This document shows, one piece after another, positions 1,257-49,327 of a stretch of DNA of 64,000 nt. The stretch lies in the NCBI RefSeq assembly GCF_006717075.1, contig NZ_VFQC01000001.1:992001-1056000 (forward strand), written 5' to 3'. This DNA is from Haloactinospora alba. Its GTDB lineage: Bacteria; Actinomycetota; Actinomycetes; Streptosporangiales; Streptosporangiaceae. Each line of letters opens with the position of its first letter. The stretch's first letter is position 1. The notes beneath the pieces were generated by a model that saw only the letters and a program-made list of their open reading frames with translations, searched no databases and was not told the origin of the DNA. Made by a program: the position numbers and the translations under genes.

Positions 1257-2507
1257 TCAGATACCGCCCGCGAAGCGCCCGGGTGCGAGTGTGTGGCACG
1301 GGTCGAGGCGGTCCTTGACCGCGCGCATCAGTTCCAACCCCGAGACATCCCCCCAGAGGTCCACTCCGTGCTCCAGCAGTTCCGGGGAGGCGCGCAGGAC
1401 CGTGAGAGCCCCGTCGGGAAGGGAATCCCGGGCGCGGGAGAGAACCGACGCGGCGGTGGCGGGATCGGCCGTGCCGGGCAGGGCCGCGTACAACACGCCG
1501 GCTCCGGCCGAACCGCGAACGCCGACGTCCAGTCCGGCGTCGCGTCCGGCGTCGCGGAGGGCGGCCGCCGCTGCCGGTGCCTCGGACAACGGGACAGTGG
1601 TTTTCAGCACGGTGTCCTTCGGGGAGCCGGGAAGGCGTCCCCACCATTCCGGGAGTTCGTCGGTGACAGTGGAGCCGTCCATCAACCCGGCTATGTCCGC
1701 TGCCCGGCTGTCGATTCCTCCGCTGCTTCCCTCCACCAGCACGTGCAGGCCCGGCGGGGCCCCCGCGGGCCAGTCCAGCTCGACGGCGGCGGGAACGGCT
1801 TGGCAAGCGCGGATGTCGGCGAGCAGGGAGCGCAGGTGAGCGGGGGCGACCCGTTCCGCCGTGATGAGACGGGAGGCGGGGGGAAGCGGGTGGAGACGGA
1901 ACGTCACCGAGGTGAGCAGACCGAGGGTCCCCAGCGCGCCGGTGTGCAGTTTGCCCAGGTCGTAGCCGGCCACGTTCTTCACCACCGTGCCCCCCGAGGA
2001 GGTGAGGACCCCGTCGGATCGGACCGTGGTCATGCCGATGATGAGGTCGCGTACGGGGCCGTGCAGCATCCGGCGGGGCCCTGACACCCCGGCCGCGACC
2101 AGTCCGCCCACGGTGGAGTCGGGGATCGCGGTGTCCACGGTGAGCCGCTGGCCGGCACGGGCCAGTTCCTCCTGCAGCTCGGCCACCGGTGTTCCCGCCC
2201 CCGCCTGGACGATGAGGTCGCCGGAGGCGTGGGAGATCCCGGTGAGGGCGGTGGTGTCGACGATGAGGTCACACCGGCGCGGCGGGTACCCCCAGTCGAT
2301 CTTGCTGGCGTTGCCTCGGGCGACCACGGAGAGGTCGTGCCGCTGGGCCGTGGCGAGGAGCGACGCCGCCGCCTCGGCGTCCGGCGGGGTGCAGACGTGG
2401 CTCGCTGCGGCGGTTCCCGCGGTGTCGGTGGCTCCAGCCGGCCGGACCCGGACCCCGTCCGCTTCCAGTTCGGCTGTGATCCTCTCGGTGCGGGGGCGCG
2501 TCTCCAT
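1257..2507 (-). CDS. glcE: Glycolate oxidase FAD-binding subunit GlcE
   Basis: A 416-residue FAD-linked oxidase of the PCMH type. It has the N-terminal FAD-binding region with VVARGNASKIDWG and the glycine-rich GLVAAGVSGPRR segment near residues 110-130, followed by a shorter C-terminal FAD-linked oxidase cap. Its length and its place between GlcD and GlcF fit GlcE, the second flavin-binding subunit of bacterial glycolate oxidase, which makes glyoxylate. The ATG start is 24 bp after glcD; the stop is 31 bp before the GTG of glcF, so the three genes look like one transcript. Codon use is like the neighbours and no key region is missing. Confidence 0.9.
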   Translation of the reverse strand: METRPRTERITAELEADGVRVRPAGATDTAGTAAASHVCTPPDAEAAASLLATAQRHDLSVVARGNASKIDWGYPPRRCDLIVDTTALTGISHASGDLIVQAGAGTPVAELQEELARAGQRLTVDTAIPDSTVGGLVAAGVSGPRRMLHGPVRDLIIGMTTVRSDGVLTSSGGTVVKNVAGYDLGKLHTGALGTLGLLTSVTFRLHPLPPASRLITAERVAPAHLRSLLADIRACQAVPAAVELDWPAGAPPGLHVLVEGSSGGIDSRAADIAGLMDGSTVTDELPEWWGRLPGSPKDTVLKTTVPLSEAPAAAAALRDAGRDAGLDVGVRGSAGAGVLYAALPGTADPATAASVLSRARDSLPDGALTVLRASPELLEHGVDLWGDVSGLELMRAVKDRLDPCHTLAPGRFAGGI

Positions 2508-2531: not shown

Positions 2532-3995
2532 TCAGAACAGTTCCGCCGATCCGTCGGACACCAGGGGGTGCTCGGTTTTCCGTACCCCCGGACGCTCGCC
2601 GCACAACCGGGGAGTGGGCAGGAGTTTCTCCGGGTTGGCGATGCCCGCCGGATCGAACGCGGCGCGGAAGCGCTCCATGGTCCGCACATCCGCAGGGGAG
2701 AACATACGCGGCATCTGGCACGCCTTGTCCACGCCGACACCGTGTTCGCCCGTGATGGACCCTCCGTGCTCGATGCACAGGTCCAGAATGGCCCCGGAGA
2801 CCTCGGCGGCCCGCTCGGTCGCGCCGGGCTCGGAGTCGTCGAACAGGACCAAGGGGTGCAGGTTGCCGTCGCCGGCGTGGAACACGTTGGCGACCCGCAC
2901 TCCCGACTCCGCCGACAGTTCCCCGATCCGGCGCAGCACCTCCGGCAGCGCGGTCCGCGGAACGACCCCGTCCTGCACGATGTAGGCGGGGCTGATACGG
3001 CCCATGGCCGCGAACGCCGACTTGCGCCCCTTCCAGATGCGCGCGCGTTCCTCCGGGTCGCTGGCGGTACGTGTCTCGAAGGCGCCGGCGGAACGGCACA
3101 GCGCCACGACCTCGGCGAACTGGGCCTCCACCTCCGGGGTGGGACCGTCGAGCTCCACGATCAGGACCGCTTCCGCGCCCGGAGGGTAACCGCAGGAGAC
3201 GGCGGTCTCGGCGGCCTCGATCGACAGGGCGTCCATCATCTCGACGGCGGAGGGGAGAACCCCGGCGGAGATGATCGCCGACACGGCTTCCCCGCCGGCA
3301 TCCATCGAGGTGAACGCGGCCAGTACCGTGCTCACCTGCTGTGGGGTGCGTTCCAGCCGCACGGTCACCTCGGTGGCGATACCGAGGGTCCCCTCCGAGC
3401 CGACGAACGCGCCGAGCAGGTCGTAGCCCGGCGCCTCCACCGCCTTACCGCCCAGGCTGACCAGTTCCCCCTGGGGCGTGGCGAAGCGTACGCCCCGGAC
3501 GTGGTTCACGGTGAAGCCGTACTTCAGGCAGTGGGCGCCGCCGGAGTTCTCCGCGACGTTGCCGCCGACCGAACACACCTGCTGGCTGGAAGGGTCGGGC
3601 GCGTAGTAGTAGCCGTACGGTGCTGCAGCCCTGGTGATGTCGAGGTTGGCCACGCCCGGTTCCACGACGGCGCACTCGTTCTCGATGTCGATCTCGCGGA
3701 TGCGCCGCATGCGCGACGTGACGATGAGAACGCCGTCGCTGTTGGGCAGCGCGCCGGCGGAAAGACCGGTCCCGGCCCCCCGGGGAACGAAGGGAACACC
3801 GTGCTCGGCACAGACCCGCACCGTCTCGACGAGTTGCTCCGGCGTGTCGGGAAGCACGACCACACCGGGCTGGGCCGCGTGGTACGCCAGCCCGTCGCTC
3901 TCGTAGGTGCGCCGACGGGTGCTGTCCGTGATCACGCCCTCGTCCCCGCAGATCGCGCGCAGCCGCGGGGTCAACGTGTCGACAGGATTCGGCAT
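2532..3995 (-). CDS. glcD: Glycolate oxidase FAD-linked subunit GlcD
   Basis: A 487-residue FAD-linked oxidase, the catalytic subunit that oxidises glycolate to glyoxylate (D-lactate dehydrogenases are close relatives). The PCMH FAD-binding domain shows FVPRGAGTGLSAGALP near residues 50-70 and VGGNVAENSGGAHCLKYG near 140-160; the C-terminal FAD-oxidase domain includes HAGDGNLHPL and ends with the GEHGVG motif typical of this family. It heads glcD-E-F and lies downstream of aceB on the same strand, separated by a hairpin-rich 119-bp gap. Glycolate to glyoxylate to malate is therefore encoded in one direction. A D-lactate dehydrogenase role cannot be excluded from sequence alone. Confidence 0.92.
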   Translation of the reverse strand: MPNPVDTLTPRLRAICGDEGVITDSTRRRTYESDGLAYHAAQPGVVVLPDTPEQLVETVRVCAEHGVPFVPRGAGTGLSAGALPNSDGVLIVTSRMRRIREIDIENECAVVEPGVANLDITRAAAPYGYYYAPDPSSQQVCSVGGNVAENSGGAHCLKYGFTVNHVRGVRFATPQGELVSLGGKAVEAPGYDLLGAFVGSEGTLGIATEVTVRLERTPQQVSTVLAAFTSMDAGGEAVSAIISAGVLPSAVEMMDALSIEAAETAVSCGYPPGAEAVLIVELDGPTPEVEAQFAEVVALCRSAGAFETRTASDPEERARIWKGRKSAFAAMGRISPAYIVQDGVVPRTALPEVLRRIGELSAESGVRVANVFHAGDGNLHPLVLFDDSEPGATERAAEVSGAILDLCIEHGGSITGEHGVGVDKACQMPRMFSPADVRTMERFRAAFDPAGIANPEKLLPTPRLCGERPGVRKTEHPLVSDGSAELF

Positions 3996-4114: not shown

Positions 4115-5725
4115 TTACGGCATCCGCTCGTAGGCGGGAAGGGTCAGGAAGTCGGCGTACTCGTCGGCCAGCGCGACCTCGGTGAACAGTTCGGTGGCGC
4201 GCTGGTACAGGGCGGTGTCGAAGCTCTCCCCGACCGCCTCGCGGATCTTGGCGAGCTCCTCGTCGACGATGCGCTGGACGAGTTCCCGGGTGACCCGGGG
4301 GCCGTCGTCCAGGGTGACGTCGTTGTGCAGCCACTGCCAGATCTGGGAGCGGGAGATCTCCGCGGTCGCCGCGTCCTCCATCAGGTTGAAGATGGCGACG
4401 GCGCCGTTCCCGCCGAGCCAGGACGCCAGGTACTGCAGACCGACGCTGACGTTGTTGCGCAGGCCGGCCTCCGTGATGCCGCCCTGTGCGGTGTTGACCG
4501 AGAGCAGGTCCCCCTGCTTGATCGTTCCGGCGACGTCCTCGCGCGTCTTGTCGATCTGGTTGGGACGGTCGCCGAGGACACGGTCGAAGATCTCGCGTGC
4601 CACGGGGACGAGGTCCGGGTGGGCGACCCAGGAACCGTCGAAACCGTCGGTGGACTCGCGTGTCTTGTCCTCGCGGACCTTGGCGAAGGCGCGTTCGTTG
4701 ACCTCGGCGTCCCGGCGGCTCGGGATGAACGCGGCCATGCCGCCGATGGCGTGCGCTCCCCGGCGGTGACAGGTACTGACGAGGAGTTCGGTGTAGGCGC
4801 GCATGAACGGTGCGGTCATCGTGACCGCGTTACGTTCCGGGAGCATGAACTGCCGGCCGCGGGTGCGGTGTGTCTTGATGACGCTGAAGAGGTAGTCCCA
4901 ACGTCCGGCGTTGAGGCCGGCCGAGTGCTCGCGCAGTTCGTAGAGGATCTCCTCCATCTCGAACGCGGCGGGGATGGTCTCGATCAGCACGGTGGCCCGG
5001 ATCGTGCCGCGCTCGATACCGAGCTTCTCCTGTGCGGTCACGAAGATGTCGTTCCACAGCCGCGCCTCGAGGTGGCTCTCCATCTTGGGCAGGTAGAAGT
5101 AGGGGCCTTTGCCCTTGTCGAGCTGGCGCTGGGCGCAGTGGAAGAAGTAGAGGGCGAAGTCGACGAGTCCCCCGGAGACACGTTGGCCGTTGACCAGGAT
5201 GTGCTTCTCGTCCAGGTGCCAGCCGCGCGGTCGGACGACGATGGTGGCCAGCTCGGAGTCGTCGTTGAGCGCGTAGCTCTTGCCCTGGGGAGTGGTGAAG
5301 TCGAGCGTGCGGTCCAGCGCGTCCCGCAGGTTGAGCTGGCCCTCGACCATGTTCTCCCACAGGGGGGCGTTGGAGTCCTCGAAGTCGGCCAGCCACACCT
5401 TGGCCCCCGAGTTGAGCGCGTTGACCGTCATCTTCCGGTCGGTCGGCCCGGTGATCTCGACGCGACGGTCGGTGATCCCGGGAGCGGGGGGAGCGACGGT
5501 CCAGTTCGGGTCCTCGCGGATGTCGCGGGTCTCCGGAAGGAAGTCCAGGTCCGCGCCGGCGGATATCCGTTCCTGGCGACGTGTGCGCGCGGTCAGGAGC
5601 TCCTGGCGCCGCCCCTCGAACATGTGGTGGAGGTCGGCGATGAACTCGACCGCGTCGTTGGTGAGGATCTCCTCGTACCGCTCGTGTAGGGGGCCGGTGA
5701 TCTCGACCCTGTCAGTGGCGCCCAT
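4115..5725 (-). CDS. aceB: Malate synthase A
   Basis: A 536-residue malate synthase of the A form, which condenses glyoxylate with acetyl-CoA to give malate and CoA in the cytoplasm. Family features: [11 protein letters not shown] near residue 95, [14 protein letters not shown] near 170, the [19 protein letters not shown] segment carrying the catalytic glutamate region near 245-265, and [11 protein letters not shown]. Length matches the A form (about 530-540), not the longer G form. The ATG at 5725 has GGAAGG upstream. It leads the glycolate oxidase genes, so glyoxylate from glycolate can go straight to malate. Two tandem IclR-type palindromes sit 9-43 bp upstream, the nearer one over the ribosome-site region, suggesting repression shared with the purine/glyoxylate genes at 37-49 kb. 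Confidence 0.96.
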
Positions 5726-5733
5726 GTAAAACC

Positions 5734-5768
5734 TTCCACAACACGAAAATAGGTTTTGGTATGTGGAA
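5734..5768. promoter_or_regulatory. Tandem IclR-type operators upstream of aceB
   Basis: Site 1 is TTCCACAACACGAAA at 5734-5748. Site 2, read on the minus strand, is TTCCACATACCAAAA at 5754-5768. Both fit TTCC-N6-CRAAA and start 20 bp apart, two helical turns. The same arrangement occurs before the hyi operon (45577/45598) and, less perfectly, before the uraD operon and the IclR/HpcH divergent pair. The link to the IclR protein at 36.8-37.6 kb is inference. Confidence 0.6.
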
Positions 5769-5814
5769 TCCGACGCTACTCTTCCGTGCCGGTCGTGGTC
5801 AACGTTGCACGACT

Positions 5815-36758: not shown

Positions 36759-37574
36759 TCAGGTCTGGTGGTTGAAGTCGCTGGCGAGCGTACGCGCGGT
36801 CCGCTGGACGATCGGTGCCGCCTTTTCGACGAAGTCCCAGCTCACCCGGGACTCGGGGCCGGAGACCGAGACCGCCATCTTGGCCGGGCCGCCCTGTACA
36901 CCGACCGAGACGCAACGCACCCCCACCTCCTGCTCGCCGTCGTCGATGGCGTATCCCTGTTCACGGATGTGGCCCATCTCGGCGGCGAAGTCCTCGGGAG
37001 AGGTGATGGTCCTCTCGGTGGCGGCCGGCATCCCGGTACGCCGGATCGTCGCCAGGGCCTCCTCCTCCGGTAGCTGGGCCAGGAGGGCTTTTCCGACCCC
37101 GGCGGAATGGGGAAGTACGCGCCGGCCGACCTCGGTGAACATCCGCATGGCGTGCGGTGAGGGGACTTGGGCGACGTAGACGACCTTGTCGCCGTCCAGC
37201 ATCGCCAGGTTGGCGGTCTCACCCAGTTCCTCCACCAGGTGCGCCAGGTGCGGGCGCGCCCACGTTCCCAGCATTCGGGAAGCGCTCTCCCCCAGTCCGA
37301 TGAGGCGCGGCCCCAGTGCGTACCGCCGGGAGGGAAGCTGGCGGACGTAACCGTTGCCGACGAGGCTGCGGATGATCCGGTGGATCGTGGGCAGCGGTAG
37401 ATGGGAGGAGTCCGCGAGTTCGCTCAGGGAAATCTCGCCACCCGCGTCGGCCATGATCTCCAGTAGCAGGAAAGCACGGTCCAGTGACTGCACACCGCCG
37501 GTGCGGGTGCGGGCTTCGGGATCCGTCGTGAGGTCGTCGGTGTCGGATGTCGTTTGTGGCGTTGGCGCTGTCAA
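36759..37574 (-). CDS. IclR-family regulator, probable allantoin/glyoxylate repressor (AllR-like)
   Basis: A 271-residue IclR-family protein. N-terminal winged helix (SLDRAFLLLEIMADAGGEIS, then LSELADSSHLPLPTIHRIIR) and C-terminal IclR ligand domain (MRMFTEVGRRVLPHSAGVGK, then GYAIDDGEQEVGVRCVSVGV). It stands at the edge of the purine/allantoin/glyoxylate island and is divergent from the HpcH-like gene. E. coli AllR and Streptomyces AllR, both IclR family, respond to allantoin-pathway metabolites. Tandem TTCC-N6-CGAAA-type sites at four promoters fit an IclR dimer-of-dimers. The regulator-site link is inference. Confidence 0.85.
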   Translation of the reverse strand: MTAPTPQTTSDTDDLTTDPEARTRTGGVQSLDRAFLLLEIMADAGGEISLSELADSSHLPLPTIHRIIRSLVGNGYVRQLPSRRYALGPRLIGLGESASRMLGTWARPHLAHLVEELGETANLAMLDGDKVVYVAQVPSPHAMRMFTEVGRRVLPHSAGVGKALLAQLPEEEALATIRRTGMPAATERTITSPEDFAAEMGHIREQGYAIDDGEQEVGVRCVSVGVQGGPAKMAVSVSGPESRVSWDFVEKAAPIVQRTARTLASDFNHQT

Positions 37575-37737
37575 CGGTTCCTAGCTCCCATCAACGTGAC
37601 CGTACCCAGCCCCTCTGGCTGCGTGTTCGGGACGGCGGTCACTTTCTTCGGGTCCTCATTCTGCGATACGGAAGCTTGGTCCGGCACCCCTGTGATGTAG
37701 CGCTTATGGTACGTGGCCCCAACGGCCACTCTTGTTG

Positions 37738-37773
37738 TTCCGAATCGTAGAAGTTATTATCCACTATATAAAA
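37738..37773. promoter_or_regulatory. Weak tandem IclR-type sites between iclR and the HpcH-like gene
   Basis: TTCCGAATCGTAGAA (37738-37752) and ATCCACTATATAAAA (37759-37773), starting 21 bp apart, in an AT-rich divergent promoter. Each differs from TTCC-N6-CGAAA at one to three positions. The spacing equals that of the other three pairs, which is the main support. Confidence 0.45.
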
Positions 37774-37832: not shown

Positions 37833-39131
37833 GTGAGTGCGCAGGACTCTGCAGGCAACAGCGCCGATGCGGCCGGAATCGGCCTCGCCGGATTGAACGA
37901 GGCCCTTGATACGCGACTCGCTGACGCCGACGCACGACTGCTGGAACAGTTCCCTGGGGAACGCGGGAAGCGTCAGCCGATCCACACTGTCTATGTTCCC
38001 GCTGACCGGATCCGTCCCGGTATCGCGACCGAGTGGGGCAAACAGGCGGACCAGGCCCTGCGGGAGCACGCCCCGGACGCGGGGACGCTGGCCGCTGCCA
38101 CCGGGATGAGTGCGGAGATGGTCGCCGAGTGCCTGCCGCGGGTGCAGGAGAAACTGCGCACCGAGCCGATCGAGGACCTGCGGATCGACCTGGAGGACGG
38201 CTACGGCACCCGACCCGACTCGGAGGAGGACCGGCACCTCACCGAAGCGGCCACCGCACTGTGCGCCGACCTGCGAAGCGCGGTGGCCCCTCCGTTCTTC
38301 GGTATCCGGATGAAGGGGATGGAGGCTGCGGGACGACACCGCGGGACACGCAGCCTGACCATGTTCCTGAACACCCTGTTGGAGGAACTGGGCGCTCTTC
38401 CCGAGGGCTTCGTCTTCACCCTCCCCAAGATCACCTCGGTCGACCAGGTGGAGGCGACGGTCTGGTTGGCGGAGCAGCTGGAGAAACGGTTGTCCCTGCC
38501 GAGCGGGAGCCTCCGGTTCGAGCTGCAGATCGAGACCCCGCAGTCCGTCATCGCTCCCGACGGCACCGCGACCGTCGCCCGGATGGTGCACGCCGGACAG
38601 GGGCGGGTAACCGCCCTGCACTACGGAACGTACGACTACAGCGCGGCGTGCGGAGTGACGGCAGGGTTCCAGAGCATGGCCCATCCGGTCGCCGACCACG
38701 CCAAGGCCGTCATGCAGGTCGCGGTCGCCGGGACCGGAGTGTGGCTGTCCGACGGCTCCACCAACGTGCTGCCGGTCGGGACCACCGAGGACGTGCACGA
38801 GGCATGGCACCTGCACTCCGGGCTCGTCCGCAGGTCCCTGGAACGCGCGTACTACCAGGGATGGGACATGCACCCCCACCACCTGCCCACCAGGTACCTG
38901 GCGACCTACGCGTTCTACCGGGAGGCGTTCCCCTCGGCAGCGGAACGGTTGGCCGCCTACCTCACCGCCGACTCGGGCGGTGTCCTCGACGAGCCGGCGA
39001 CCGCTCAGGCCCTGGCCTCCACCCTTGTCCGTGGCCTGCGCTGCGGCGCGCTCTCCGAGAGCGAGGTCAGTGACGCCACCGGAGCCGGATCCGAGGTGCT
39101 GGTCGGTTTCGCCAACCGGCGGGTGGGCTAG
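37833..39131 (+). CDS. HpcH/HpaI aldolase-like protein (DUF6986 type) of the allantoin locus
   Basis: A 432-residue protein with the citrate-lyase-beta/HpcH aldolase fold: RIDLEDGYGTRP near residue 122 (Asp-Glu-Asp signature), FFGIRMKGME near 155, FELQIETPQSV near 230 carrying the metal-binding Glu, and HYGTYDYSAACGV near 265 carrying the metal-binding Asp. Active-site residues look intact. It is longer than simple HpcH aldolases. Such proteins recur beside allantoin genes in actinobacteria, so glyoxylate or a ureido-acid is a plausible substrate, but the reaction is not known to me. GTG 37833 has GGAAGGGG upstream. The TAG stop is followed at once by a MITE-like element. Confidence 0.75.
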   Translation: MSAQDSAGNSADAAGIGLAGLNEALDTRLADADARLLEQFPGERGKRQPIHTVYVPADRIRPGIATEWGKQADQALREHAPDAGTLAAATGMSAEMVAECLPRVQEKLRTEPIEDLRIDLEDGYGTRPDSEEDRHLTEAATALCADLRSAVAPPFFGIRMKGMEAAGRHRGTRSLTMFLNTLLEELGALPEGFVFTLPKITSVDQVEATVWLAEQLEKRLSLPSGSLRFELQIETPQSVIAPDGTATVARMVHAGQGRVTALHYGTYDYSAACGVTAGFQSMAHPVADHAKAVMQVAVAGTGVWLSDGSTNVLPVGTTEDVHEAWHLHSGLVRRSLERAYYQGWDMHPHHLPTRYLATYAFYREAFPSAAERLAAYLTADSGGVLDEPATAQALASTLVRGLRCGALSESEVSDATGAGSEVLVGFANRRVG

Positions 39132-39292: not shown

Positions 39293-39571
39293 GGCGCTGT
39301 GGCTCGTGGCCAGTAGGGATACTGGTCGACGGCGGTACCCGTTGCCGACGTGACGGGAGACCCAGCCCTCCCGCGGAGTACGGCGGTACCGCTGGTTCCC
39401 GGAAGAGGTCCGGAAGGGGCCCGCTGGTCCCGGAACGGCCACACCAGCTGACCGTTCCGGGACTCTCCGGTGGGATCGTTGCCGCGCGCCCGCGGCAAGG
39501 CTGCCTCGGCCGGGGGCGCAGGACCCACGGCGCCCCACCGAAACTTCATCAACCATGCGAGATGTGGAGAT

Positions 39572-40924
39572 ATGCCAGATTACGACTACGACCTTGTGAT
39601 CCGTGCGCGCCGGACGGTGACTCCACAGGGGGAGATCCCGGCCACGGTGGGAGTACGCGACGGGAAGATCGTGGCGGTGGAGAGCTACGACAGTCCGGTG
39701 CGTTCCGCTGAGACGGTGGAACTGGCGGACGACGAGGCACTGCTTCCCGGCCTTGTCGACAGCCACGTCCACGTCAACGAGCCGGGACGGACCGGCTGGG
39801 AAGGGTTCGCGACGGCCACCCGCGCGGCTGCGGCCGGAGGGTTCACGACGATCGTGGACATGCCGTTGAACAGCATCCCCCCGACCACGACCGTGGAGGC
39901 GTTGGAGACCAAACGTGAGGTCGCCCGCCAGCAGGCCACCGTCGACATCGGGTTCTGGGGAGGAGCGGTCCCGGAGAACACCGACGCGGGTGACACGAGT
40001 GAACTCCGCGCGCTACACGAGCAGGGGGTGTACGGGTTCAAATCCTTCCTGTCCCCCTCGGGCGTGGAGGAGTTCGGCCATCTCACCGCTGAGCAGTTCC
40101 GCACCGCCGTCACCGCGATCGGGGAGTTCGGCGGGCAGATCATCGTGCACGCCGAGGACGCGAACGTACTGAGCGCGGCACCGTCGGCCCAAGGGCCGGA
40201 CTACGCCGGCTACCTCGCCTCCCGGCCGGACGAGGCCGAACACGCGGCGATCGAGCTCGTCATCGAGACCGCGCGCGCCACCGGTACCCGCTCGCACATC
40301 CTGCACCTGTCGACGGCCACGGCACTGCCCGCGATCAGGCGGGCCAGGGAGGACGGTGTGCCGTTGACGGTGGAGACCTGCCCGCACTACCTGACGCTTG
40401 CCGCCGAGGAGGTCCCGTCGGGCGCGACCCAGTTCAAGTGCTGCCCGCCGATCCGTGGCGCCGCCAACCGGGACGCCCTCTGGCAGGCGCTCGCCGACGG
40501 TCTCATCGACTGCGTCGTCAGCGACCACTCGCCGAGCACACCCGACCTGAAACACCTGGAAACCGGTGACTTCGGAACCGCCTGGGGCGGGGTATCCGGG
40601 CTGCAGGTGGCGTTCTCGGCGGTGTGGACCGAGGCGGCGCAACGTGGTTACGGCCTCGCCGACGTCGCCTACTGGATGGGGCAGCGTCCGGCCGAGGTCG
40701 CGGGGGTGGACGGAAAGGGGCGTATCGCTCCCGGTAACGACGCTGATTTCGCCGTCGTCGCCCCGGATGCGGGGACCAGGATCGACGCGCGGACGCTGCA
40801 GCACAGGCACTCCCTCAGCGCCTACGACGGAACCGAGGTGCGCGGAGTGGTGCGTCAGACCTGGCTGCGTGGCGCGCGGATCGACTTTGACGACCCGAGG
40901 GGGCGGCTGCTGAGCCGAGCCTGA
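39572..40924 (+). CDS. allB: Allantoinase
   Basis: A 450-residue dihydroorotase-type amidohydrolase that opens allantoin to allantoate. Binuclear metal site: [14 protein letters not shown] near residue 58, the carboxylated-Lys region [13 protein letters not shown] near 150, [10 protein letters not shown] near 190, [12 protein letters not shown] near 245, and [10 protein letters not shown] near 315 with the catalytic Asp. Neighbouring uricase-pathway genes support allantoinase over hydantoinase or dihydroorotase. ATG 39572 ([14 protein letters not shown]) has GGAG just upstream. The following step, allantoicase or allantoate amidohydrolase, is not in the window. Confidence 0.92.
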
Positions 40925-43332: not shown

Positions 43333-44229
43333 TTACACGAACTTGGGAACCGTGTCCCAGGCACGGCCGGCCTCCGGAGCGTCGTCGCGTTCCACCGTGG
43401 CCTCGATCAGGCCGTAGGGGCGGTCCGCGGCGAAGAACACCTCGTTGGGGTTGTCCAGGCCGAAGGGGGAGAGGTCCACCAGGAAGTGGTGGTTGTTGGG
43501 CATGGAGAACTTGATCTCGGCGATCTCCGGGTGCGCTTCCAGCACAGCCTGGCCCATGGCGTACAGCGTCTGCTGGAGGGCGTAGCTGTGGGTGTTGGCG
43601 AACTGTTCGAGCATGATCGCCTTCACCGACTCGTAGGTCTTGTCCCAGTCGATGTCGTGGCTGGTGTAACGCCAGCGCGCCGAGACGTCAGTGGCGAGAA
43701 TCCGGTCGGTGACCTCGGGAAGCGTGGTGTACCTCGTCTTCGGGTACCCGTGGAACTCCGAGCCGGTGGACTTCAGCACGGTCAGCCCGGTGAAGCCGGA
43801 CACGACCCATTCCTCGCCGTGTTCCTTGGTGACGACGGTGGTGCGGGTCTCGCCCCCGCGCCGGACGAACGAATGGTCGTGCGGGCCGTCCTGCGTCGGG
43901 ATGCGGTCCCAGGAGTACTCCTCCACTTCCTGGCGCGCTCCGTTGACGTGCTCGAAACCGCTGACGAAGTGCCGTGCGAGCAGAAGGGCGAAATCCTCGA
44001 TCGCGCCGACGCCCCCGTTCTCCTTCGCGAGGGCGTAGACCGTGTTCTTCTGGGTGTCGGTAGGGATGCAGGGGCTGTTGTCACCAGCGCTGTGCACGGG
44101 TTCGAAGTCGCCCCGGAGCTGGGAGCTGACGTTGACGTCCTTGATCTGGTGGACGTCGGTCTCCCGGTTGATCCGGACCAGCCGCACCTCGGCCTTGCCG
44201 TACTGGTTGTCTCCGAGTCGGATACCCAC
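43333..44229 (-). CDS. uaZ: Urate oxidase (uricase)
   Basis: A 298-residue cofactor-free uricase that oxidises urate to 5-hydroxyisourate. Conserved elements: GKAEVRLVRINRETD with the N-terminal Lys, DNSPCIPTDTQKNTVYALAK with the catalytic Thr near residue 58, and MPNNHHFLVDLSPFG with the active-site His near 255. Two T-fold repeats make the tunnel-shaped tetramer in known structures. The GTG start at 44229 follows AAAGGAG. Third gene of the uraD-hiuH-uaZ group, so the three steps from urate to allantoin are together. Confidence 0.95.
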   Translation of the reverse strand: MGIRLGDNQYGKAEVRLVRINRETDVHQIKDVNVSSQLRGDFEPVHSAGDNSPCIPTDTQKNTVYALAKENGGVGAIEDFALLLARHFVSGFEHVNGARQEVEEYSWDRIPTQDGPHDHSFVRRGGETRTTVVTKEHGEEWVVSGFTGLTVLKSTGSEFHGYPKTRYTTLPEVTDRILATDVSARWRYTSHDIDWDKTYESVKAIMLEQFANTHSYALQQTLYAMGQAVLEAHPEIAEIKFSMPNNHHFLVDLSPFGLDNPNEVFFAADRPYGLIEATVERDDAPEAGRAWDTVPKFV

Positions 44230-44370: not shown

Positions 44371-44733
44371 TCAGCTGCCCCGGTAAGTGGAGAACGCGAA
44401 TGGGCTCAACAGGAGCGGGATGTGGTAGTGCGCGTCCTCGTCGGTGAGGTGGAAGGCGATGGTGGCCTCGGGGTAGAAGCCCTGTTGGCCGGTGCGGTCG
44501 AAGTAGTGCGCCGTGTCGAAGACGACCCGGTACGTGTCGGCGCTGAGCTGTTCCGGTCCGAAGTCGGGAACGCGGCCGTCCTCGTTGGTGCTGCTTTGCG
44601 CGACCGTTTCCCAGGAGGCGTGTCCGGGAGTGGCCTCGGCGCCGCCTGCTGCGCGCCGTTCCAACCGTACGGGTACTCCCGTGGCCGGACGGCCGAGGGC
44701 AGTGTCGAGGACGTGTGTCGTCACGTGGCTCAT
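44371..44733 (-). CDS. hiuH: 5-Hydroxyisourate hydrolase (transthyretin-like)
   Basis: A 120-residue HIUase that hydrolyses 5-hydroxyisourate to OHCU. Active-site features: SHVTTHVLDTALGRPA at the N-terminus (His), a central Arg, HYHIPLLLSPFAFSTY and the C-terminal YRGS motif that separates HIUases from true transthyretins. ATG 44733 overlaps the uraD stop (ATGA), so translation is coupled. The frame extends to 44877 but only by reading over uraD. Confidence 0.95.
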   Translation of the reverse strand: MSHVTTHVLDTALGRPATGVPVRLERRAAGGAEATPGHASWETVAQSSTNEDGRVPDFGPEQLSADTYRVVFDTAHYFDRTGQQGFYPEATIAFHLTDEDAHYHIPLLLSPFAFSTYRGS

Positions 44734-45263
44734 GTGTTGTCCAAGACCTTTCCAACGCGCAGTAGCGCGATCTTGCGGAGTTCGTCGGCGACTACCCGCG
44801 ACTCGGTGGCTGGGTCGTTGTCCAGTCGGCTCTGGAGGTCCGCCAGGAGCTCCTCGCTGGACCGTCCGCTGGCGCACACCAGATAGATCTGTCCGAAGCG
44901 CTTCTCGTACTCCACTTGCCCTTCGTGGAAGGCTGACTGGACGTCAGTGGCGCCCTCGGCGAAGCCGGACTGTTCTCCGCGCGACCACTGGGACTCGGTG
45001 CTGTTGCCGGAGGCCCGGTCACCGATGCGGGGGTGACGGGCGAGGGCGGAGGCCACTTCGTCGTCGGTGATACTGCGCGCGTGTGCGTCAACCGCGTCGA
45101 GCAGCGCGGTGCGGTCGCTGAACGGCCGCTCGTTGAGCAGTGCCTCCACCCAACGGTCGATGTTGAGGCACTGCGCGAATTCCGTGCGGAAGTCCGCGGT
45201 GGCCAGTGCGTTGACCCGCGCTACTCCGGGATCGGTAACCGCGGCGGCGGTGCTGTCGGGCAT
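44730..45263 (-). CDS. uraD: OHCU decarboxylase
   Basis: A 177-residue 2-oxo-4-hydroxy-4-carboxy-5-ureidoimidazoline decarboxylase, giving S-(+)-allantoin. The catalytic His lies in ALARHPRIGDR near residue 76, followed by SRGEQSGF near 93 and EKRFGQIYLVCASGRSSEEL near 120, all family hallmarks. First gene of uraD-hiuH-uaZ on the minus strand and divergent from hyi. Possible paired IclR-type sites lie 84-119 bp upstream. Confidence 0.94.
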   Translation of the reverse strand: MPDSTAAAVTDPGVARVNALATADFRTEFAQCLNIDRWVEALLNERPFSDRTALLDAVDAHARSITDDEVASALARHPRIGDRASGNSTESQWSRGEQSGFAEGATDVQSAFHEGQVEYEKRFGQIYLVCASGRSSEELLADLQSRLDNDPATESRVVADELRKIALLRVGKVLDNT

Positions 45264-45346: not shown

Positions 45347-45382
45347 TTTCGTACTGCAGAAACCTGCTTCTACATCTCGGAC
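45347..45382. promoter_or_regulatory. Weak tandem IclR-type sites upstream of uraD
   Basis: TTTCGTACTGCAGAA (45347-45361; on the other strand TTCTGCAGTACGAAA is close to the hyi site) and TTCTACATCTCGGAC (45368-45382; on the other strand close to TTCCGAATCGTAGAA at 37738). The starts are 21 bp apart. Each has several mismatches. Confidence 0.45.
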
Positions 45383-45576
45383 TGTAGCCCCGGTCACAGT
45401 GCTGTTGTCAACTCCCCTCGCCGGAGAAACTTTTCCGTTTGGGTCATTTTGCGATGATTGTCCGTTTCGCGCGTGGGCGGGGGTGTGTCCGGCGGGGGTG
45501 TGAGTCGCACGCCTGGTTAGGGGGATGTGGCGTCGGGAGCTTGACAAGGTCGGCGTCGGGGCGCACACTCAAATTA

Positions 45577-45612
45577 TTCCTTAAAGCGAAAACCATATTC
45601 CGTATTACGAAA
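45577..45612. promoter_or_regulatory. Tandem IclR-type operators upstream of hyi-glxR-gcl
   Basis: TTCCTTAAAGCGAAA (45577-45591) and TTCCGTATTACGAAA (45598-45612), both exact matches to TTCC-N6-CGAAA, starting 21 bp apart. The second is a good palindrome (TTYCG-N5-CGRAA). They lie 22-57 bp before the hyi ATG, a position suited to repression. Confidence 0.65.
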
Positions 45613-45633
45613 ACTATCGAAGGGTGGCGAGAC

Positions 45634-46434
45634 ATGAGTCACTCGCTGCGCTACACGGTGAACTGCTCCCTGCTGTTCACCGAACTGCCTGTCAACGAGC
45701 GTCCGGCCGCGGCCCGCAAGGCCGGGTTCGACGCGGTCGAGTTCTGGTGGCCGTTCGAGAGTGCCGTTCCGGCCGAGGGCGATGTGGACGCGTTCGTCCG
45801 CGCCATCGACCAGGCGGGTGTGGAGCTGACCGGGCTGAACTTCTTCGCCGGCGCCATGCCCGGACCCGACCGCGGCGTTCTCTCCCAGCCGGCCCGTGCC
45901 CAGGAGTTCCGCGACAACATCGACGTGGTGGCGGCGATCGCGGAGCGCACCGGAACCACGGCCTTCAACGCGCTCTACGGCCTGCGGGAAGAGGGGGTCG
46001 ACCCCAAGACCCAGGACCGCACGGCGCTGGACAACGTCGTCGCCGCGGCCAAGGGGGTCGCCAGCGTCGGTGGGACCGTGCTGATCGAGCCGGTAAGCGG
46101 TGCCGAGAACTACCCCCTGAAGACGGCCGCCGACACGTTGGCGTTCGTCGCCGAGGCCAAGGCCGCGGGCGCCCCCAACGTGGCGTTCCTCGCGGACTTC
46201 TTCCACCTCGCGGTCAACGGGGACGACGTCGCCGCGGTGGTGCGCGACCACGCCGCCGAGTTCGGCCACATCCAGATCGCCGACGTTCCCGGACGCGGCG
46301 AGCCGGGAAGCGGCGAACTGCCGATCCAGGAGCTGCTGGCCGCCTCCCAGGCCGGGGGGTACAACGGCCCCGTCGGCCTGGAGTACAAGCCCACCGTCGC
46401 CAGCGCCGACAGTTTCGGCTGGCTCGACCGCTGA
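45634..46434 (+). CDS. hyi: Hydroxypyruvate isomerase
   Basis: A 266-residue xylose-isomerase-like TIM-barrel protein that interconverts hydroxypyruvate and tartronate semialdehyde. Typical pieces: SLRYTVNCSLLFTELPVNER at the N-terminus, GFDAVEFWWPF near 32, GGTVLIEPVS near 150 and PVGLEYKPTV near 247 with metal-binding acidic residues. ATG 45634 lies 22 bp after the second IclR-type site. First gene of hyi-glxR-gcl on the plus strand, the glycerate branch of glyoxylate use. Confidence 0.92.
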   Translation: MSHSLRYTVNCSLLFTELPVNERPAAARKAGFDAVEFWWPFESAVPAEGDVDAFVRAIDQAGVELTGLNFFAGAMPGPDRGVLSQPARAQEFRDNIDVVAAIAERTGTTAFNALYGLREEGVDPKTQDRTALDNVVAAAKGVASVGGTVLIEPVSGAENYPLKTAADTLAFVAEAKAAGAPNVAFLADFFHLAVNGDDVAAVVRDHAAEFGHIQIADVPGRGEPGSGELPIQELLAASQAGGYNGPVGLEYKPTVASADSFGWLDR

Positions 46435-46496
46435 ACTCCCAGCCGCCCCCCCCGGACGGGAACTGAACTCTCACGCCACGGAAAGGGAAAGACACC

Positions 46497-47387
46497 ATGT
46501 CCCAGGCGCGCAACATCGCCTTCGTCGGTCTCGGCATCATGGGGCTGCCGATGGCGACCAACCTGGTCAAGGCGGGGTACAACGTCTCCGGTTACAACCG
46601 GACCCCCGCCAAAGCCCAAAAACTCGCCGAGCAGGGGGGTAAGGCCGCGGGCAGCATCGCCGAGGCGGTGTCGGAGGCCGACGTCGTCATCACGATGGTT
46701 CCCGACTCCCCGGACGTCGAGTCCGTCCTCCTCGGGCAGGACGGCGTGTTCGCCAACGTGAAGTCGCAAGCGTTGGTCGTCGACATGAGCACGATCCGCC
46801 CCGACGTCGCCCGCACGGTCGCGGACGAGGGAGCGAAGCGGGGACTGCGAGTGCTCGACGCCCCCGTCAGCGGCGGCGAGGCCGGCGCGATCGAGGGCAA
46901 GCTCTCCATCATGGTCGGTGGCGACAGCGCGGCCTTCGAGGAGGCCAAACCGATCTTTGACGTTGTGGGAAGCACCCCGGTACTGGTCGGCCCCTCGGGC
47001 GCCGGGCAGACCGTGAAGGCCGCGAACCAGCTCATCGTGGCCGGCAACCTCCAGCTCGTGGCCGAAGCGCTGGTGTTCCTCGAAGCGCATGGTGTGGACA
47101 CCGAGTCCGGGCTCGAGGTACTCAACGGCGGGCTGGCCGGAAGCACCGTCATGGGGCGCAAGGGCGCCGCCATGCGGGAACGCAACTTCCAGCCCGGCTT
47201 CCGCATCGAGCTGCACGACAAGGACCTCAAGATCGTGACCCAGGCAGCGAGGGAAGCCGGAGTGACGATCCCGGCCGGGGCCCAGGTGGCGCAGTTCGTC
47301 AGCGCGCTGAAGGCCCAGGGCCACGGGGGGCTGGACCATTCCGCCCTGCTGCGGCTCGTGGATCAGCTCTCCACAGAGGAGAAGTAG
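46497..47387 (+). CDS. glxR: Tartronate semialdehyde reductase
   Basis: A 296-residue beta-hydroxyacid dehydrogenase that reduces tartronate semialdehyde to D-glycerate with NAD(P)H. The nucleotide-binding motif FVGLGIMGLPMATNLVKAGY is at residues 10-29, the substrate-site motif DAPVSGGEAGAIEGKLSIMV near 122, and the catalytic Lys in GAGQTVKAANQLIVAGN near 168. It is 62 bp after hyi with GGAAAGGGAAA upstream of ATG 46497. Closely related 3-hydroxyisobutyrate dehydrogenases exist, but the gcl-hyi context supports GlxR. Confidence 0.93.
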   Translation: MSQARNIAFVGLGIMGLPMATNLVKAGYNVSGYNRTPAKAQKLAEQGGKAAGSIAEAVSEADVVITMVPDSPDVESVLLGQDGVFANVKSQALVVDMSTIRPDVARTVADEGAKRGLRVLDAPVSGGEAGAIEGKLSIMVGGDSAAFEEAKPIFDVVGSTPVLVGPSGAGQTVKAANQLIVAGNLQLVAEALVFLEAHGVDTESGLEVLNGGLAGSTVMGRKGAAMRERNFQPGFRIELHDKDLKIVTQAAREAGVTIPAGAQVAQFVSALKAQGHGGLDHSALLRLVDQLSTEEK

Positions 47388-47596: not shown

Positions 47597-49327
47597 ATGG
47601 TACAGACTCCCGCGATGAACGCGGTCGTCGAGGTCCTCAAATCGGAGGGTGTCGACACGGCCTTCGGGTGCCCCGGAGCCGCTGTTCTCCCGCTGTACAA
47701 GGGGATGGAACAGGTCGGCGGCATCGAGCACCTCACGGTGCGGCACGAAGAGGGCGCCACGCACATGGCCGATGGCTGGGCGCGTACGACCGGCAAGGTC
47801 GGAGTGGCGATCGGAACCTCCGGTCCGGCCGGAACCAACATGATCACCGGTCTCTACACCGCGATGGCCGATTCGATCCCGATCGTGTGCATCACCGGCC
47901 AGGCGGTCTCCACCAAGCTGCACCAGGAAGCGTTCCAGGCGGTGGACATCGTCGACATCGCCAGGCCGGTCACCAAGTGGGCGGTGCAGCTCAAGGAGGC
48001 CGCGCAGGCTCCCTGGATCTTCCGGGAGGCGTTCCGCGTCGCCCAGGAGGGGCGTCCCGGTCCGGTCCTGATCGACCTTCCCTTCGACGTGGCCACCCAG
48101 ACGATCGAGTACGACCCCGGCATCGACGCCCCGTTGAAGGTCAACACCGTCGAACCGCACCAGCCGCGGGTCGAACGGGCCCTGGACATGCTCCTCGCCG
48201 CGGAGAAGCCACTGCTCCTCGCCGGCGGGGGCGTCATCATCTCCGAGGCATCCGAGGAGCTCAATGAGCTCGCCGAGTACCTGAACATTCCGGTCCAGGC
48301 CACCCTCATGGGCAAGGGGGTCATGGACGAGGACCACGACCTCTACTCCGGTATGACCGGGATCCAGACCTCCCAGCGATACGGGAACGCCTCGTTCCTG
48401 GAGTCCGACACGGTGTTGGCGGTGGGGGCTCGGTTCGGCGACCGGCACACCGGTAGCAACCTCGACGTGTACCGCGGGCAGCGCCGGTTCATCCACGTCG
48501 ACATCGAACCGACCCAGATCGGCAAGGTCTTCGAACCCGACCTGGGAGTGGTGTCGGACGCCAAACTGTTCCTGCGTAGTCTGCTGGACCTGGCGAAGCG
48601 GCGCGGTGAGAAGCGGGAACGGGGCGCCTGGGTGGCCCGGGTCAACGAGCTCAAGAACTCGCTGGAGCGTCGGGAGGACTTCGACGAGAGCCCGATCAAG
48701 GCGCCGCGGGTCTACAAGGAGATCAACGAGGCGTTCGGTCCGGAGAGCGATGCCTACTTCGTCACCGCCATCGGCCTGTACCAGATCTGGGGCGGACAGC
48801 ACCACAAAGCGTTCAAGCCCCGGCACTACCAGGTCTGCGGCCAGGCCGGCCCGCTCGGGTGGGAGATCCCGGCCGCCATCGGGGTGAAGAAGGCGCTCAA
48901 GAACAGCGAACCGAACGCCGAGGTCGTCGGTGTCGTCGGGGACTACAGCTTCCAGTACACCGTGGAGGAGCTCGCGGTCGCCGCGCAGTACGACGTCCCG
49001 TTCGTGCTGATCATGATCAACAACGAGTACCTGGGCCTGATTCGGCAGGCCGAGATCCCGTTCGACATGAACTACCAGGTGGACATCCACTACGACGAGT
49101 TCGGGTCGGACAACGTCAAGATCATGGAGGCCTACGGGTGCTCCGGGCGCCGCGTGTACCAGCCGGAGGAGATCCGTGACTCCCTGGAGTGGGCGCGTAA
49201 GGAGGCACGCCGTACCTCACGCCCTGTTCTGGTGGAGATCATGATCGAACGCGAAGCCAACACTCCCCACGGTCCCAACATCGACGCGGTCAAGGAGTTC
49301 GAGTCGCTGCCGGAAACCGCGGGCTGA
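47597..49327 (+). CDS. gcl: Glyoxylate carboligase
   Basis: A 576-residue thiamine-diphosphate enzyme that joins two glyoxylate molecules, giving tartronate semialdehyde and CO2. From residue 1 it aligns without gaps to the E. coli Gcl N-terminus as I recall it: TAFGCPGAA near 21, RHEEGATHMADG at 49-60, GTSGPAGTNMITGLY near 75, HIDIEPTQIG-type VDIEPTQIGKVF near 300, CGQAGPLGWEIPAAIG near 415, and the ThDP motif GDYSFQ..NNEYLGLIRQ. Residue 51 is Glu, where the E. coli enzyme has Val. Last gene of hyi-glxR-gcl; a structured 209-bp gap separates it from glxR. Acetolactate synthase-like family, but the context is clear. Confidence 0.93.
   Translation: MVQTPAMNAVVEVLKSEGVDTAFGCPGAAVLPLYKGMEQVGGIEHLTVRHEEGATHMADGWARTTGKVGVAIGTSGPAGTNMITGLYTAMADSIPIVCITGQAVSTKLHQEAFQAVDIVDIARPVTKWAVQLKEAAQAPWIFREAFRVAQEGRPGPVLIDLPFDVATQTIEYDPGIDAPLKVNTVEPHQPRVERALDMLLAAEKPLLLAGGGVIISEASEELNELAEYLNIPVQATLMGKGVMDEDHDLYSGMTGIQTSQRYGNASFLESDTVLAVGARFGDRHTGSNLDVYRGQRRFIHVDIEPTQIGKVFEPDLGVVSDAKLFLRSLLDLAKRRGEKRERGAWVARVNELKNSLERREDFDESPIKAPRVYKEINEAFGPESDAYFVTAIGLYQIWGGQHHKAFKPRHYQVCGQAGPLGWEIPAAIGVKKALKNSEPNAEVVGVVGDYSFQYTVEELAVAAQYDVPFVLIMINNEYLGLIRQAEIPFDMNYQVDIHYDEFGSDNVKIMEAYGCSGRRVYQPEEIRDSLEWARKEARRTSRPVLVEIMIEREANTPHGPNIDAVKEFESLPETAG

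Follow-up and report, generated by a model that had tools for sequence, protein, structure and literature searches.

Paired palindromes at glyoxylate and ureide genes of an actinobacterium are probable operators of an AllR-type IclR repressor

Introduction

Do the genes that make glyoxylate and the genes that use it answer to one regulator in this actinobacterium? The question is raised by two palindromes in front of the hydroxypyruvate isomerase-like gene hyi, read directly from the sequence as TTCCTTAAAGCGAAA from position 45577 and TTCCGTATTACGAAA from position 45598, and by comparable pairs before the malate synthase gene aceB, before uraD, and between an iclR gene and its divergent neighbour. 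A sequence-only reading that found these pairs by eye assigned them to a single IclR-type regulon. We followed up this proposal in the window, by which we mean the whole 64,000-nucleotide stretch analysed (bases 992001-1056000 of contig 1 in an actinobacterial genome of 4.94 Mb), as well as in the whole genome and in other genomes. On the basis of these analyses, the pairs are highly likely to be operators for a single AllR-type IclR repressor whose gene lies in the same island; this protein would repress as a tetramer and be released by a ligand.

Results

The operator unit is an imperfect 15-bp palindrome with the best form TTYCR-N5-YGRAA, and two such units make up each pair (Table 1). A weight matrix was trained on seven relatives alone and then applied to the window, where the four pairs ranked first to fourth with scores of 45.6, 37.0, 32.9, and 32.2. 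All four were present where they had been seen by eye. The 21-bp phase noted by eye holds at hyi, uraD, and iclR-DUF6986; at aceB the spacing is 20 bp, on which the sequence-only reading did not remark. The signal is carried by pairing rather than by single matches to TTCC-N6-CGAAA; this pattern was rejected as a marker, being unspecific with 23 exact matches in the genome. Likewise, a loose pair pattern allowing three mismatches gave 42 rows in the genome, mostly elsewhere, and a profile was used instead. In addition to the pairs, a single operator-like site lies upstream of iclR. Five of the seven relatives have a counterpart of it 5' of iclR at nine of ten positions and G010 has a weaker one; among the seven compared, none was listed in G029.

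Table 1. Operators, probable promoters, and genes of the proposed regulon in the window
Feature	Position	Strand	Description
glcE-like gene, glycolate oxidase subunit	1257-2507	-	Best NCBIfam match GlcE, below cut-off
glcD, glycolate oxidase subunit	2532-3995	-	Best NCBIfam match GlcD, below cut-off
aceB, malate synthase A	4115-5725	-	TIGR01344 above cut-off
aceB operator pair	5734-5748 and 5754-5768 (5734-5768)		20 bp spacing, imperfect palindromes; kept in 7/7 relatives
Probable aceB promoter	5773-5802	-	TTGACC 5802-5797, 18 nt, TAGCGT 5778-5773
iclR, proposed AllR-type repressor	36759-37574	-	PF09339, PF01614; nearest relatives, tree
Single operator-like site	37659-37673		TTCTGCGATACGGAA; closer to iclR
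iclR-DUF6986 operator pair	37738/37759 (37738-37773)		21 bp spacing; kept in 7/7 relatives
DUF6986 gene	37833-39131	+	PF22484, sole Pfam match; beside iclR
allB, allantoinase	39470-40924	+	TIGR03178 565 bits, cut-off 358
Uricase	43333-44229	-	PF01014; TIGR03383 above cut-off; downstream of uraD, same strand
HIU hydrolase	44371-44877	-	PF00576; downstream of uraD, same strand
uraD, OHCU decarboxylase	44730-45263	-	TIGR03180 above cut-off
uraD operator pair	45347/45368 (45347-45382)		21 bp spacing; kept in 4/4 relatives having this uraD
Probable hyi promoter	45541-45569	+	TTGACA 45541-45546, 17 nt, CACACT 45564-45569
hyi operator pair	45577-45591 and 45598-45612 (45577-45612)		21 bp spacing; kept in 7/7 relatives
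hyi, hydroxypyruvate isomerase-like	45634-46434	+	PF01261 E 6.7e-32
glxR, 2-hydroxy-3-oxopropionate reductase	46497-47387	+	TIGR01505 above cut-off
gcl, glyoxylate carboligase	47597-49327	+	NF008431 above cut-off

Conservation was assessed in the seven relatives, which belong to the same GTDB family and whose IclR proteins share 80-87% identity with the one in the window. Promoters of hyi, aceB, and iclR were taken from all seven and those of uraD from four. At 25 of these 25 orthologous promoters, the best pair matches 18-20 of the 20 defined positions, with a spacing of 20 bp at aceB and of 21 bp at the other three genes. The constancy of the phase is better tested in the Streptomyces loci described below, where the search admitted spacings of 19-22, because that in the relatives admitted 20 and 21 alone.

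To survey whole genomes, a profile of sequence only (R1) was built from the relatives' 25 pairs, excluding the genome of the window, and run on 60 genomes with strict filters that were equal for all. In the own genome, six rows reached E ≤ 1, namely hyi and uraD (each on both strands), iclR-DUF6986, and aceB; no match at this threshold fell outside those four promoters, and equally good pairs at random genes were not found. Weak profile matches in G008 (C4), G007 (C27), and G000 (C1:3828423) had no glyoxylate gene recognised nearby, and G008 has a further weak match on C21. It is barely conceivable that the pairs are products of chance or base composition, with AT-rich promoters in a GC-rich genome yielding look-alikes. 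Every site is indeed AT-rich and single matches to the pattern are frequent, with 23 in the genome, yet pairs scoring 32-46 in the window face a maximum of 14.6 (mean 5.1) for the top-scoring pair per window among 100 windows simulated with a first-order Markov model. The profile made without the own genome led to these four places alone, and both spacing and bases are kept across genera. The genome scan is the check requested in the sequence-only reading, and it did not refute the proposal.

The position of the operators was related to the promoters of hyi and aceB. The hyi operator starts 8 nt past the last base of the probable promoter, and the blocks of both promoters are conserved in an alignment of eight genomes. 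They share one plan, in which TTGAC(A/C) is followed after 17-18 nt by another hexamer and then immediately by the operator. As a generic scan for consensus promoters called none at hyi or at aceB, both assignments rest on conservation. At uraD, the pair lies 84-119 bp 5' of the gene, which makes repression less obvious there.

The hyi product has TIGR03234 as its best NCBIfam match (238.5 bits, below the cut-off of 353), and a hyi-like gene, searched for in the correct frame 45634-46434, occurs in 29 of the 60 genomes at E ≤ 1e-30. A GTG at 45624 was rejected as the start of hyi; it opens a shadow frame (45624-46466) without a Pfam match, and the start is the ATG at 45634. The shadow frame nevertheless finds relatives at 53-57% identity, a trap for open-frame annotation in GC-rich DNA.

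The aceB operator probably reaches further than malate synthase. As all 30 aceB loci have glcD behind aceB in the same orientation, glycolate oxidase is probably under the aceB operator, and in the window, where a glcE-like gene is added, both genes probably form one operon with aceB.

Another pair lies outside the window, 1.10 Mb from hyi (C1:2141766-2141801; L016, L298). It was found by the loose pattern, scores 28.3 with the matrix, and stands 54-89 bp 5' of a gene for glycerate kinase (367 bits with TIGR00045, cut-off 168). R1 missed it in the own genome under the strict 60-genome mode, and a local search gave it 8.7-9.6 bits. Six of the group's eight genomes keep the pair, at -89 to -91 and with scores of 16.6-31.2; G010 and G029 lack it. 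At 22 glycerate kinase loci from genomes outside the group, the matrix gives no score above 0.8. A second profile (R2), trained with the own genome and glycerate kinase included, was run on the eight genomes. By our own count, 25 places reached E ≤ 0.05, every one of them at a glyoxylate or ureide gene; most of these were in the training set of R2, and G007 C4:332387 alone is new evidence. This place and a weaker one, G022 C1:2849289 (E 0.97), lie between a MatC carrier gene and one for a class V aminotransferase. Among NCBIfam models, the aminotransferase is best matched by that of the aspartate-glyoxylate aminotransferase BhcA, below its cut-off, and a close copy of the gene is found in two of the eight group genomes, G007 and G022. 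In locus coordinates, the tandem pairs of these two relatives are L332 2887-2923 and L333 2889-2924.

The gene divergent from iclR had been called HpcH-like and is instead a member of DUF6986 (PF22484, E 2.4e-182). A structure model made from ten sequences has a pLDDT of 70.9 and a pTM of 0.71. Foldseek placed malate synthases best (E 3e-6, though with an rmsd near 20), while a second aligner matched the model to malyl-CoA lyase with a Z of 23.9 (rmsd 4.0, 303 aligned) and to malate synthase A with a Z of 21.3. A profile of the family searched against solved structures also found malyl-CoA lyase (E 5e-4), and the protein shares with the AceB of the window an IET motif and the pattern G-x-(Y/W)-D-Y (GTYDY versus GRWDY). 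The gene adjoins aceB in G042 and G047 and uraD in G048. DUF6986 is predicted to have the fold of the malate synthase/malyl-CoA lyase superfamily, and a glyoxylate-linked lyase or synthase is its likely identity. Among the papers searched, none mentions DUF6986.

The protein encoded by the island iclR gene has the DNA-binding and effector domains of its family, with PF09339 (HTH) at 57.4 bits and PF01614 (C-terminal effector domain) at 132.1 bits, both above the gathering scores. Judged by curated models, it is neither an E. coli-type AllR (NF007548, 104.4 bits against a cut-off of 406) nor an E. coli-type IclR (NF008601, 157.4 bits against 380). Its nearest named relatives are in Nocardiopsis and Streptomonospora. 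With a match of at least 217 bits as threshold, this IclR type was called in 30 of the 60 genomes, every one of which has aceB; of the remainder, 19 have aceB without such an IclR and 11 lack aceB at the threshold.

Sites at aceB track with the regulator. An R1 match (E ≤ 1) directly 5' of aceB was found in 25 of the 30 genomes with this IclR type and in none of the 19 without it (Fisher p 2e-9), in 18/23 versus 0/19 once the seven training genomes were excluded (p 1e-7), and in 17/19 versus 0/10 inside the same family (p 3e-6); these p-values overstate the case, because related genomes share ancestry and are not independent. The contingency table was compiled by hand from three outputs. The matrix, applied to 30 aceB loci, separates the same groups: all 13 non-training genomes with this IclR score 30.0-46.4 and all ten without it score -29.3 to -0.1, the other seven being training genomes. 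Five genomes with this IclR type (G001, G016, G042, G057, G058) have no aceB match at E ≤ 1, although a local search found one in G057 at E 0.019. In G020, a single contig, 2.35 Mb separate aceB from iclR, and the pair is kept at both. Of the 30 genomes lacking an IclR of this type, three (G028, G031, G040) have some R1 match at E ≤ 1, none of them at aceB.

From these results, the regulator of the pairs is very probably the island IclR protein. It is improbable that the pairs are bound by another regulator or by an IclR paralogue, with the island IclR as a regulated neighbour. The own genome does have nine IclR-type matches, and the motif alone cannot separate paralogues with alike DNA readers. 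Related paralogues may read similar sites, because R1 matches also precede other IclR-like genes (G021 C66:23824-23860 and G040 C43:9302-9326). However, distant IclR paralogues are nearly universal, with an IclR match in 59 of the 60 genomes, whereas the aceB sites are confined to genomes with this particular type. Moreover, iclR adjoins sites in all seven relatives and in Streptomyces. The genome scan, the orthologous promoters, and the tracking of aceB sites with the island IclR type uphold the proposal of one IclR-type regulon covering aceB, hyi, uraD, and iclR-DUF6986.

Discussion

The regulon has a counterpart in Streptomyces. A search of named genomes gave 80 IclR loci, of which 14 are close relatives at 76-83% identity and the other 66 (61-69%) are nearly all from Streptomyces; one locus labelled Microtetraspora clusters with Streptomyces in the tree. 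Streptomyces violaceoruber and S. coelicoflavus were included, S. coelicolor A3(2) itself being absent from the set. In the Streptomyces loci for which gene maps were drawn, allB and the IclR gene diverge, and any aceB in range is found downstream. With the matrix, a pair scoring above all 2470 control stretches was found in 65 of 65 allB-iclR regions, in every case with a spacing of 21, and in 55 of 57 aceB upstream regions of Streptomyces-type loci, where the spacing was 21 in 54 of 57. One of the two misses, L217, has masked bases. The tree joins the window's group and Streptomyces in a larger group with a support of 90/100. Judged by these sequence comparisons, the regulator is an orthologue of Streptomyces AllR, and the regulon is the AllR regulon known from S. 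coelicolor in another actinobacterial group. The sequence-only reading had named neither this parallel nor glcDE or glycerate kinase.

In S. coelicolor, AllR is reportedly a repressor that binds the promoters of the allantoin pathway, affects hyi, and is released by allantoate and less so by glyoxylate. As in the regulon described for that species, a probable IclR-family repressor sits here beside allB and the genes concerned are those of allantoin and glyoxylate, including hyi; the operator motif at allB-allR and aceB is shared with the Streptomyces orthologues. There are also differences. Unlike in Streptomyces, DUF6986 lies here between iclR and allB, and aceB heads glcD-glcE 31 kb from iclR with a 20-bp spacing. 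Here hyi-glxR-gcl form one cluster with one operator, whereas in the Streptomyces-type G057 hyi and gcl each have a pair of their own. The glycerate kinase pair was seen in the window's group only. Literature searches on AllR gave no paper on the Nocardiopsis-type group.

The sites also agree with what is described for the wider family. Passages of PMC8222616 give TYCRY-W3-RYGRA as the core of IclR-family group 1, with tandem centres typically 18-22 nt apart, and both the palindrome and the tandem spacing in the window fit this description; those passages do not describe such a regulon in Nocardiopsis-type genomes. E. coli IclR and AllR belong to the same family and likewise regulate glyoxylate shunt and allantoin genes, but in their operators the order of the half-sites is reversed, GGAA...TTCC (Table 1 of PMC8222616). 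Of the E. coli IclR ligand residues listed in Table 1 of PMC11323563, G160, D212, S239, and S241 are identical here by alignment and A161 is replaced by Val. The best NCBIfam model for the island protein is BhcR (189.9 bits, below the cut-off of 350). Like it, BhcR of Paracoccus denitrificans is an IclR protein, and one responsive to glyoxylate; unlike the regulator here, it controls the beta-hydroxyaspartate cycle.

With the sites, their conservation, their genome specificity, and their tracking with the IclR type computed, we infer binding by the island IclR, its tetrameric state, repression, and a ligand. Two IclR dimers, probably as a tetramer, would occupy the palindromes of a pair, 20 or 21 bp apart, from the same side of the helix; tetramers of IclR-family proteins are described in passages of PMC8222616. 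At hyi and aceB, where the operator comes directly after the presumed -10 hexamer, the bound repressor would cover the transcription start. Accumulating glyoxylate, allantoate, or a related compound would make the repressor let go. This would switch on the genes that make glyoxylate (those for uric acid and allantoin, and glycolate oxidase behind aceB) together with those that use it (aceB, hyi-glxR-gcl, the distant glycerate kinase, and perhaps DUF6986). Repression with release by glyoxylate, allantoate, or both is suggested because the tandem palindromes lie two turns apart, IclR proteins form tetramers, and the operators overlap the presumed starts.

It is rather unlikely that the same regulator mainly activates, or acts with mixed sign. 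Such an action is proposed for BhcR, the best-matching model, which according to passages of PMC11323563 would repress itself and activate its target cluster. The pairs at uraD and glycerate kinase, set well upstream of their genes, could also suit an activator. Against this, the pairs at hyi and aceB start directly after a conserved -10-like block, a position suited to blocking, and the Streptomyces orthologue is said to act as a repressor. In addition, passages of PMC12772271 cite an IclR homologue in S. coelicolor as having been shown to repress allantoin metabolism.

A second, more distant group of regulators suggests how an AllR-type repressor may have acquired its targets. In 15 genomes, a sister-type iclR gene shares the strand of aceB and follows it at a distance of a few kb, with the gene order aceB, glcD, glcE, iclR in G012 and G025, and the aceB pair is present in all 15. 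At hyi, matrix scores of 36.6-46.6 were obtained in ten genomes (the own genome, the seven relatives, G042, and G057), and the 20 other hyi loci examined, including all sister-type ones among them, score -2.8 or less. The tree is consistent with two IclR groups, with several deep forks weak and some branches long. Because the sister-type regulator sits near aceB and leaves hyi without sites, the use of glycolate and glyoxylate would seem the older job and allantoin a later addition.

We tentatively extend this, with slightly more doubt than confidence, to a general proposal: actinobacterial AllR-type proteins may be general glyoxylate switches rather than allantoin switches, DUF6986 may be an unrecognised glyoxylate-handling Claisen-type enzyme similar to malyl-CoA lyase or malate synthase, and glycerate kinase and, in two genomes, the glyoxylate aminotransferase-like gene may complete the network. 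The analysis turns a motif spotted by eye into a defined regulon with conserved operators and a candidate repressor. It extends the candidate targets of AllR-type proteins to glycolate oxidase and glycerate kinase, which had not previously been linked to this repressor, and gives DUF6986, a family without known function, a testable role. In a poorly studied group of actinobacteria, purine breakdown, glycolate oxidation, and glyoxylate use would thereby come under a common switch.
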